From Bradyrhizobium sp. WSM3983 (GTDB taxonomy: Bacteria; Pseudomonadota; Alphaproteobacteria; Rhizobiales; Xanthobacteraceae), in the NCBI RefSeq assembly GCF_000473045.1, contig NZ_AXAY01000002.1, positions 1 to 64,000 of the forward strand: a DNA stretch of 64,000 nucleotides, written 5' to 3'. The first letter of the stretch is position 1; every line of letters starts with the position of its first letter. Position numbers and translations under genes: made by a program. The notes beneath the pieces were generated by a model. It made no database searches. It was not told the DNA's origin and was given only the letters and a program-made list of their open reading frames with translations. This document shows, one piece after another, positions 30,442 to 32,388 of this stretch.

Positions 30442-32388
30442 TTACGCCAGACAGCGGAATAGCAGCGCCGGATCGCGGTCAGGATCGATGCGCAACCTGA
30501 CTCCGCCCCATTCGATGCGGGACTGTTCGCCTGTCATGAGATTTTCGAGGGCGGTGACGTGGCGGCGTTCGCCGCCGACGCCGATGGTGAGGTCGCCGAG
30601 CAGCAACCAGAATTCGCGCACATGGCGCGAGAGGGCGATGGCGGCGACGACAGTGTTGGCCGGTTCAGCCGCCTCCTTGGCGAAGGCGATGGTCTCGCCG
30701 TCCTCGATGCCGAGGAAGCGCAAATTGGTCGTCTGCTGCAGCGCCGCGTTGTCGTTGCGGATGCGGTTGAGCGCGGTGATGTAGGGCTTGATGTTGCCAG
30801 GCTTGTCCCAGTCGCGCTGGCGGATCTGGTACTTCTCGGAATCCTGATATTCTTCGTGGCCGGGGATGGCCTCGTGCTCGAGCAGTTCGAACCCGCTGTA
30901 GAGGCCGTAATTGCCCGACAGCATTGCGGCCAGCGCGACGCGCGACTTGAAGGCCCAGGCCTCGCCGCTCTGGAGATGATAGGGCAGCAGGTCCGGCGTG
31001 TTGACGAACAGATTCGGACGATAGAAGTCCCGTTCGGGATAGCGCGTGAGCTCACCCAGATATTGCTCCAGCTCCCACTTCGCCGTGCGCCATGGGAAAT
31101 AGGTGAAGGACTGCGAAAAACCGAGCTTGGCGAGACCCTTCATCAGCTTCGGCCGTGCAAACGTCTTGGAGAACAGGATCACCTCGGGATGCCGCAGACG
31201 AATGTCGCGGATCAGCCACTCCCAGAACGGCGGCGGCGCGGTGTCGTGATTGTCGATCGCGAAAATGGTCACGCCATGGTCGATCCAGAACAGCATGGCG
31301 TCGCGGAATGCATTCCACAGCCCGACCCGGTCGACGGAGGCGAAATCGGGGATGACGATATCCGAATAGGGACCATCCGCCGTCCGCACCGAGCGGTCGG
31401 GCCGCCATTTGAACCATTCCGGGTGCTGCGTCAGCCAGGGATGATCCGGCGAGCATTGCACGGCGAAATCGAGCGCGAGCTCGAGGCCGTATTCGAGGCA
31501 GGTCGCGACCAGCGCGCGAAAATCCTCGACGGTGCCGAGCTCGGGATGCACCGCATCGTGCCCGCCCTCGGCCGCGCCGATCGCGTAGGGCGAGCCGGGC
31601 TCGCCCTCGGTCGCCACCGGCGCATTGTTGCGGCCCTTGCGGTGGGTCTGGCCGATCGGGTGGATCGGCGTGAAGTAGAGCACGTCAAAACCCATCGCGG
31701 CGATATCGGGCACGCGCGCGATGCAGTCGCGCAGCGTGCCGTGCCGGCCGGCAACCCGGCTCTGGCTGCGTGGCATCATCTGATACCAGGCACCGAAGCG
31801 GGCCTTGTCGCGGTCGATGATCAGCGGGAAGGGCGGCGAGCGGGTGAGGTCAGGCCGGGACTGGCTCTCGGCCATGGCCTCACCGAGATCGGTTGCCAAC
31901 AGCGAGGCGACATCGCCGCTTTGAAGATAGTCCTCGCATTGCCTGACAATGACGGCCGCGGCGTCCTGCCGCGCGCCATGCGCCTTGGTCAGCAGGCCCG
32001 CACCCTCGATGGCATCGAGCGTGACGTCGCTGCCGGACAGCTGCTTGCGCTCGACCCCGTGACGCCAAGTGGCGAATTCGTCGGTCCAGGCTTCGATGGC
32101 ATAGACATATTGGCCGGACTCGGCCGGCACGAACGTGCCGGACCAGCGGTCGTCGCTATGATGGGTCATGCTCTCGCGCCGCCATTCCCGGTCCTGCTCG
32201 CCGCGCCAGATCAGCGCGGCGCCGATTGTGGCGTCGCCATCGCGATAGATGTCGGCCCAGACCTCGACCCGTTCGCCGGCGATCCGCTTCACGGCAAAGC
32301 GACCGCCATCGATCGACGGATAGACGTCTTCGATCAGGAAAGCGCTGCCGGCAGCGGCACTCTCGACAGTTTGAATTGTCTTGTTCAC
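30442..32388 (-). CDS. GlgE-like maltosyltransferase homologue with altered active site
   Basis: About 648 residues, collinear with GlgE, which extends alpha-1,4-glucan from maltose-1-phosphate. It keeps FLIEDVYPSIDGGRFAVKR, TPIHPIGQTHRKGRNN, AVQCSPDHPW, the nucleophile Asp (D379) and NTPDLL. Three key places differ from the motifs I know. RVDNPHTKP reads AIDNHDTAP (Arg to Ala at 377). AEAFTRP reads SKTFARP, putting Lys 408 where the general acid Glu belongs. The phosphate-contact ENPPKKY segment reads TADGPY. The 29-residue spacing between D379 and K408 equals that of D394 and E423 in Streptomyces GlgE. Activity is doubtful. GTG start at 32388 chosen because the N-terminal domain begins just after; upstream frame is antisense to malQ's leader. 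Confidence 0.85.
   Translation of the reverse strand: MNKTIQTVESAAAGSAFLIEDVYPSIDGGRFAVKRIAGERVEVWADIYRDGDATIGAALIWRGEQDREWRRESMTHHSDDRWSGTFVPAESGQYVYAIEAWTDEFATWRHGVERKQLSGSDVTLDAIEGAGLLTKAHGARQDAAAVIVRQCEDYLQSGDVASLLATDLGEAMAESQSRPDLTRSPPFPLIIDRDKARFGAWYQMMPRSQSRVAGRHGTLRDCIARVPDIAAMGFDVLYFTPIHPIGQTHRKGRNNAPVATEGEPGSPYAIGAAEGGHDAVHPELGTVEDFRALVATCLEYGLELALDFAVQCSPDHPWLTQHPEWFKWRPDRSVRTADGPYSDIVIPDFASVDRVGLWNAFRDAMLFWIDHGVTIFAIDNHDTAPPPFWEWLIRDIRLRHPEVILFSKTFARPKLMKGLAKLGFSQSFTYFPWRTAKWELEQYLGELTRYPERDFYRPNLFVNTPDLLPYHLQSGEAWAFKSRVALAAMLSGNYGLYSGFELLEHEAIPGHEEYQDSEKYQIRQRDWDKPGNIKPYITALNRIRNDNAALQQTTNLRFLGIEDGETIAFAKEAAEPANTVVAAIALSRHVREFWLLLGDLTIGVGGERRHVTALENLMTGEQSRIEWGGVRLRIDPDRDPALLFRCLA

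Follow-up and report, generated by a model that had tools for sequence, protein, structure and literature searches.

What does a GlgE protein that has lost its key catalytic residues do in an operon of the GlgE pathway? GlgE is the α-1,4-glucan:maltose-1-phosphate maltosyltransferase of family GH13_3, and the question is raised by a homolog encoded in a 64,000-nucleotide stretch of Bradyrhizobium sp. WSM3983 (contig NZ_AXAY01000002.1, positions 1–64,000; hereafter "the window"). The glgE-like gene lies on the minus strand at positions 30442–32388, in an operon with the order glgE, treS-mak, glgB, and glgX, with malQ divergent from it. An earlier interpretation of the window (the sequence-only reading) described this protein as a GlgE altered in its catalytic residues within an intact GlgE-pathway operon, acting either as a pseudoenzyme or on another substrate. 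Our analysis indicates that both steps involving maltose-1-phosphate, its production by the maltokinase (Mak) and its use by GlgE, have likely been lost, and that the retained GlgE is probably a noncatalytic binder of α-glucan chain ends, a view that we hold with reasonable rather than high confidence.

The gene encodes 648 amino acids from the GTG at 32386–32388, the same length as many deposited relatives; its longest open frame (30442–32544, minus strand) encodes 700 amino acids from the longest GTG start. Positions in the window protein are given here in the 700-residue numbering, and residues are compared in the numbering of Streptomyces coelicolor GlgE. The protein contains domain N/S (PF11896, E-value 4.8e-52) and is similar to solved GlgE over its whole length, with residues 69–695 aligned to 5vsj (S. 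coelicolor GlgE, E-value 2.8e-146). All the motifs named in the sequence-only reading were found in this minus-strand frame, namely, AIDNHDTAP (31234–31260, residues 429–437), SKTFARP (31150–31170, residues 459–465), and TADGPY (31366–31383, residues 388–393), the last standing where the phosphate-contact loop ENPPKKY is expected. In the alignment with S. coelicolor GlgE, Ala429 (codon 31258–31260) replaces Arg392 of the −1 site, and Lys460 (codon 31165–31167) replaces the general acid/base Glu423; no Glu stands at the acid position in this alignment. The equivalents of the nucleophile Asp394 (Asp431, codon 31252–31254) and of the third carboxylate Asp480 (Asp518, codon 30991–30993, in the NTPD motif at residues 515–518) are kept, as had been claimed, and the distance of 29 residues between Asp431 and Lys460, which the sequence-only reading had numbered D379 and K408, equals that between D394 and E423 of S. 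coelicolor GlgE. Among the phosphate contacts, Asn352 is replaced by Gly391 and Lys355 is deleted, while Tyr357 and Asn395 are retained as Tyr393 and Asn432. His397, an acceptor contact at the +1 subsite, is replaced by Asp434, and Lys399 by Ala436. All five residues of the −2 subsite (Lys264, Asn268, Asp359, Lys534, and Tyr535) are present, as are Gln324, Arg449, and Trp448, the acceptor platform (residue roles, including phosphate contacts, as reported in PMC4526890 and PMC5076824).

With these residues, a GlgE of the window type is predicted to be unable to transfer maltosyl from maltose-1-phosphate, and the pseudoenzyme alternative is backed by the replacement of the acid Glu, Arg392, and two phosphate contacts. 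A search of the window's own genome revealed no second GlgE; the next match scored 22.5 bits over residues 249–375.

The altered form is shared by the relatives of the window protein. We collected 265 nonidentical GlgE sequences, 250 of which were distinct over the core columns. Lys occupied the acid column in 210 of the 210 sequences with at least 74% identity to the window, which rules out a sequencing error or frameshift; all 53 sequences below 73% had Glu and Arg, and the two between 73% and 74% were one of each kind. Because the class of 211 Lys-bearing sequences is defined by this Lys, its presence in all 211 is definitional, and the identity-based count is 210/210. Throughout that class, Arg392 was replaced (by Ala in 208, Thr in two, and Val in one) and His397 was lost, and in four of its members the nucleophile Asp was missing as well. 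Nineteen columns switched cleanly between the Lys and Glu groups; two of them lay in the poorly covered N-terminal extension, and nine of the other 17 fell within residues 429–461. Among 60 representatives sharing less than 90% identity, the replacement residues were themselves fixed (Ala429 in 98%, His433 in 98%, Asp434 in 97%, and Ala436 in 95%). Such coordinated and fixed replacements, together with the nucleophile and Asp480 kept in the window, would be expected if the altered center, with Lys460, His433, and Asp434, were active on nonphosphorylated glucans. Against this, Arg392 and the acid are both missing, the nucleophile is lost in the four relatives, and Lys is not known to serve as the acid of a glycosidase; an active, rebuilt center is therefore very improbable.

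We searched 117 genomes of the genus, one of which (G035) was unreadable. Among the remaining 116, 60 carried the E423K form, 19 had a complete GlgE (judged by eight residues), 11 had lost the phosphate contacts only, one was differently degenerate, and no GlgE was seen in 25, several of which were less than 90% complete (e.g., G074, G090, G097, and G100). The sequence-only reading had asked whether the changes are fixed across Bradyrhizobium; they are fixed in the window's clade, and genus-wide they occur in only the 60 of 116 genomes. In these searches, no genus other than Bradyrhizobium yielded the degenerate form, although many of the protein-database matches were metagenome sequences. A broader spread of the altered motif was rejected, as F-A-x-DNHD-[ST]-AP was present in nine of the 397 genomes searched in the order, and each of the nine is a Bradyrhizobium. 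The dead-looking motif is carried by the two checked proteins named B. japonicum and B. diazoefficiens (P0010 and P0087), and L079, the closest outgroup operon in the tree, is complete.

A second Bradyrhizobium clade (11 operons, L132–L142; proteins P0121–P0139) has kept Glu423 and Arg392; here, ENPPKKY has become EHPPQRW, with Asn352, Lys355, and Tyr357 replaced by His, Gln, and Trp. Proteins close to those of this clade carry the names B. pachyrhizi, B. tropiciagri, B. jicamae, and B. erythrophlei. In P0132, P0136, and P0138, which are relatives of this clade, Glu423 is additionally lost (Gly), a change that looks more like decay.

The kinase half of the TreS-Mak fusion (27138–28739, minus strand; TIGR02457, 617 bits) is also altered. 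In Mycobacterium vanbaalenii Mak, His307 is reported to line the maltose pocket, mutation of Lys413, Tyr416, or Tyr420 to practically abolish activity, and mutation of Ser136 to cost 97% of it (PMC4306142). In the alignment of the window with Mak, the four pocket residues His307, Lys413, Tyr416, and Tyr420 correspond to Arg948 (codon 27588–27590), Gln1061, Asp1064 (codons for 1061–1064 at 27240–27251, minus strand), and Tyr1068, only the last being retained. The ATP- and Mg-associated residues Ser136, Lys150, Asp305, and Asp322 are all kept, as S740, K753, the catalytic D946, and the Mg-binding D963. The operon is therefore not intact as the sequence-only reading had supposed, because its kinase half lacks residues whose mutation practically abolishes the activity of the mycobacterial maltokinase. 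The same pattern was seen in 81 loci of the degenerate clade, a count in which the window is included and a few genomes appear twice (79 rows being distinct): His307 was Arg in all 81, Tyr416 was lost in all 81, and Lys413 was lost in 74, while Ser or Thr was present at position 136 in 74 and Lys150, Asp305, Gln310, and Asp322 were present in all 81. The replacement of E324 by Asp in the DFE loop (DFD in the window) was not scored as a loss, since glucosamine kinase has DFD.

Could this kinase still produce maltose-1-phosphate for some other enzyme, as the sequence-only reading had proposed? The half is an open frame scoring above its family cutoff; however, maltose-pocket residues have been lost from all 81 loci, and a complete kinase occurs only next to a complete GlgE (see below), an unexpected pattern if maltose-1-phosphate were used elsewhere. 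That proposal is unsupported, and we consider it the least credible of the explanations weighed here. The retained ATP and Mg residues raise a different prospect, in which the kinase took on another sugar and TreS-Mak became a new bifunctional enzyme served by the pseudo-GlgE. Another substrate, which the sequence-only reading had suggested for GlgE and which is unlikely for that protein, is thus still conceivable for the kinase half. The sugar pocket has changed (His307 and Tyr416 in 0/81) while the ATP and Mg residues remained, in contrast to the loss of the P-loop Ser in 23 of 23 glgE-less operons scored for it, and a comparable switch of specificity, through the D-x-H loop and helix α12, has been described for a Mak-fold glucosamine kinase (PMC6520443). 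Identity as a glucosamine kinase was rejected for the window, as the signatures Q-x2-RE-x2-YA-x3-LP-x-W and D-x-H are missing and the sequences found are QAFDEVEYELSHRPEG and D946-x-R948. Furthermore, positions 1061 (Gln, His, Lys, or Arg) and 1064 (Asp, Asn, Glu, or His) are variable, unlike a specific binding site, and the ratio of nonsynonymous to synonymous substitution rates (dN/dS) of the kinase, 0.215, exceeded that of each of the other five stretches analyzed in the degenerate clade. A switch to another sugar is, in our judgment, doubtful.

With one exception among the loci compared, an incomplete kinase active site was paired with an incomplete or absent GlgE. Kinase completeness was scored on eight residues, with Ser or Thr accepted at position 136 after two complete operons were found to have Thr. 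All eight were retained in the 17 complete-GlgE operons of Bradyrhizobium, whereas the P-loop Ser136 was Pro in 11 of 11 operons of the clade with lost phosphate contacts and was lost in 24 of 24 glgE-less operons. The state of Mak matched that of GlgE in 119 of 119 loci of the 116 Bradyrhizobium genomes; among 86 operons, 16 of which were complete-GlgE operons outside the genus but within the family, both were complete in 32, Mak was incomplete beside an incomplete or absent GlgE in 53, one was discordant, and Mak was never complete where GlgE was not. These two counts reuse the loci on which the rule was formed and are not independent. In the E423K genomes, Mak was read in 59 of 60, as that of G072 lies off the contig; also dropped or partial were L220 (GlgE with no Mak on its stretch), L203 (a cut contig with gaps at the later sites), and, outside the 86-row set, L148 (broken frames) and L201. 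The single discordant operon among the 86 (L216; 85 agree) counts against the pairing: its GlgE is complete and Tyr416 of its Mak is His, a discordance that falls in the allowed direction.

A later-fetched set, drawn from five other genera and two Bradyrhizobium genomes outside the 117, agreed in 20 of 20 cases; 19 fusions without a linked GlgE were incomplete, and in several of them the catalytic Asp or the Mg Asp was gone as well, whereas one linked copy was complete. The force of this agreement is reduced by the choice of the set, which was not blind, having mostly been picked for a low Mak family score and no GlgE, so that decay was expected, and by at least six similar genomes (G182, G228, G241, G285, G294, and G320) that were left out. 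We also considered the operons in a phylogenetic context. In a tree of TreS, GlgB, and GlgX, the state of GlgE changed seven times, giving six independent pairs on well-supported branches. Over 200 random pairings, Mak was concordant in 5.9 of the six pairs on average and never opposed, a few pairings having one neutral pair, and the sign test on the 86-row tree gave a median p of 0.031 (range 0.031–0.063); in the 51-row tree, Mak was concordant in 6.0 of six pairs. The trees (41, 86, and 51 rows, the 51 being drawn from the 86) came from quick searches with support from the Shimodaira–Hasegawa-like approximate likelihood ratio test (SH-aLRT) only.

The cleanest contrast is provided by genomes with two Mak copies. 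In G052, G054, G103, and G110 (L143–L146 with L196–L199), there is no glgE in the operon and a distant, second-type complete GlgE is encoded elsewhere; the stand-alone Mak beside the latter is complete in all four, and the fused Mak is broken in all four, as if the pathway had been regained. In G187, likewise, the Mak by GlgE is complete and the other is not. Accumulation of maltose-1-phosphate is reported to be toxic when GlgE fails (PMC4526890; PMC7805345), and a glgE null mutant of Streptomyces venezuelae shows developmental delay with accumulation of this compound (PMC5042117). Given this toxicity, GlgE could presumably be lost only where the kinase had already been lost or was lost simultaneously. 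The making and the use of maltose-1-phosphate have likely been lost together, as the known toxicity predicts.

If both steps are lost, why is the altered GlgE retained? The gene could be a functionless relic left after the loss of maltose-1-phosphate production, with its deletion pending. Such plain decay would account for the absence of glgE from 25 of the 116 genomes. In the glgE-less operons, the malQ-treS gap has shrunk from about 2150 bases to 201–340 bases (25 measured), and three of these 25 (L184, L188, and L191) have glgE-like remnants of about 35 to 85 amino acids of the N terminus between malQ and treS-mak, pointing to deletion in place. In one of the 60 genomes with the degenerate form (G078; L148, 8849–10926), frame breaks split both glgE and treS-mak. 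The nonsynonymous change (dN) of glgE relative to that of glgB was also higher in the degenerate clade (2.58) than in the complete clade (1.36). Against decay, the dN/dS of glgE in the degenerate clade, estimated from 35 of 78 degenerate loci, was 0.166, compared with 0.129 in the complete clade, as expected of a gene retained under selection, and the protein is maintained as the sequence-only reading had stated, with a single open frame in 59 of the 60 genomes. Six ligand residues (Lys264, Asp359, Lys534, Tyr535, Asp480, and Trp448) were conserved in all of the 60 divergent representatives, with others conserved in part (Asn395 in 98%, Gln324 in 97%, Tyr445 in 95%, Asn268 in 93%, Arg449 in 87%, and Ser279 in 82%), and the replacement residues described above are fixed rather than drifting. 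We consider plain decay unlikely, although it deserves to be taken seriously.

A precedent for a retained function comes from S. coelicolor GlgE, whose inactive E423A variant has been reported to bind malto-octaose over subsites −2 to +6 in crystals (PMC5076824). From the low dN/dS, the open frames, the conserved sugar residues, and this binding, we infer that the retained GlgE is probably a pseudoenzyme that binds glucan ends. Several observations weigh against this explanation. The raised dN of glgE relative to glgB also fits slow decay; His397 at the +1 subsite has become Asp, and Arg449, Asn268, and Ser279 are missing in part of the clade. Sister lineages have deleted glgE, so the retained protein was dispensable there, and the kinase half, with its ATP and Mg residues kept, may not be dead. 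Both the predicted inactivity of GlgE and its putative glucan binding are read from residues. An AlphaFold model of the window protein (46 sequences; mean predicted local distance difference test score [pLDDT] of 68.1, predicted template-modeling score of 0.65) had 5lgw (S. coelicolor GlgE) as its best structural match (E-value 4.9e-54, template-modeling score of 0.62); because the pLDDT was below 50 at residues 460–485 and 499–526, we make no claim on active-site geometry, which is beyond the reach of the model, and take from it a GlgE-like fold only.

In the explanation that we favor, both maltose-1-phosphate steps would be enzymatically dead, the toxic build-up of maltose-1-phosphate having forced the loss of the kinase no later than that of GlgE. 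TreS would convert trehalose to free maltose, to be handled by MalQ, while GlgC and GlgA would make glucan and GlgB and GlgX would shape it. The pseudo-GlgE would hold glucan through its kept −2 and −1 subsites and the Trp448 platform, as the E423A variant does, and could dock the enzymes of the operon on the polymer or meter the polymer. The GlgE route from trehalose to glycogen has thus likely been switched off in the soybean-symbiont type of Bradyrhizobium though both proteins are kept.

The TreS half (trehalose synthase; 28752–30431, minus strand) scores 910 bits against TIGR02456 (cutoff 678), and its catalytic residues H120, R216, D218, E260, H325, and D326 are intact; the same residues were intact in 110 of 110 loci and in 20 of 20 of the later-fetched set. 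The branching enzyme gene glgB (24998–27163) and the debranching enzyme gene glgX (22916–24994) follow on the same strand, and malQ (4-α-glucanotransferase; 32471–34555) lies on the plus strand. The genome that contains the window encodes GlgC next to one GlgA, with at least one further GlgA copy, and GlgA was above the cutoff in 115 of 117 genus genomes; α-glucan synthesis therefore need not depend on GlgE. The treS gene of B. diazoefficiens is reported to be a member of the EcfG regulon, and its mutation to raise trehalose and lower maltose (Sugawara, cited in PMC8092242), which fits free maltose as the end of the trehalose branch. The σ-EcfG pattern GGAAC-N15-18-CGTT had three matches in the window (1.85 expected), none of them in the glgE-malQ gap. 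At 32388–32560, the longest glgE and malQ open frames overlap head to head; the start codons of relatives lie about 50 (glgE) and 30 (malQ) codons further in, most relatives aligning with MalQ from about codon 30, so that about 170 bases are left between the two genes.

Other altered copies were encountered. Three metagenome GlgEs near the complete clade (P0145, P0146, and P0183) bear Lys at the Glu423 position; the first two are otherwise canonical at the checked sites, and P0183 also lacks Lys355 and Tyr357. In two separately degenerate GlgEs (L147 in G083 and L204 in G337), the phosphate contacts are missing and the accompanying kinase half is broken; the nucleophile of L204 is Lys. In genera g7, g14, g19, g37, and g41 of the same family (L222–L237 and L239), TreS is intact, the kinase P-loop Ser is lost, and there is no linked GlgE; the kinases often also lack the catalytic Asp or the Mg Asp, so that a dead-looking kinase tail is retained beyond Bradyrhizobium.

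These results show that assignment of the GlgE pathway needs residue checks and not the presence of the operon, as only 19 of 116 Bradyrhizobium genomes had a complete GlgE. A published account credits B. japonicum, the best-known species of the group, with a complete glgE operon (PMC8084333), a statement that is true of gene presence but not of the residues. Moreover, the six independent comparisons in which maltokinase and GlgE were lost as a pair amount to a naturally occurring test of whether maltose-1-phosphate is toxic outside actinobacteria, and the E423K protein, a pseudoenzyme found in nature that keeps most sugar-subsite residues, is well suited to studying the noncatalytic roles of GlgE. 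A bolder synthesis would hold that the GlgE operon of the B. japonicum supergroup was rebuilt, not lost, into a maltose-1-phosphate-free trehalose/α-glucan machine, in which TreS is fused with a kinase that binds ATP and has acquired a new sugar pocket, and GlgE is a glucan-anchoring pseudoenzyme subunit; that elsewhere in the family both steps were dismantled together several times; and that maltose-1-phosphate toxicity is a general rule of genome evolution. Taken as a whole, this synthesis is speculative and rather unlikely.

A pseudoenzyme in a known family is a known kind of protein; neither this variant nor the coupled kinase-GlgE rule was found in the open-access literature that we searched. 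The window protein is homologous over its whole length to S. coelicolor GlgE1 and Mycobacterium tuberculosis GlgE (35–40% identity in the fold search), with which it shares domain N/S, the nucleophile Asp, Asp480, the −2 subsite, the Trp448 platform, and an operon with treS-mak, glgB, and glgX, but differs from them in Glu423 (Lys), Arg392 (Ala), His397 (Asp), Lys399 (Ala), and a shortened phosphate-contact loop. It also resembles the catalytically inactive E423A and D394A variants of S. coelicolor GlgE (PMC5076824), the former changed at the same acid position with the sugar subsites kept; these were made in the laboratory, whereas the natural window protein additionally lacks Arg392 and two phosphate contacts. 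The kinase half shares with the actinobacterial glucosamine kinase described in PMC6520443 the Mak fold, the DFD metal loop, and Gln at the Lys413 position, and differs from it in lacking its two signatures. Finally, the fusion has the architecture and the intact TreS of the TreS-Mak/Pep2 fusions reported for the GlgE pathway in Pseudomonas aeruginosa and Estrella (PMC11046441) and departs from them in the replaced maltose pocket of its kinase.

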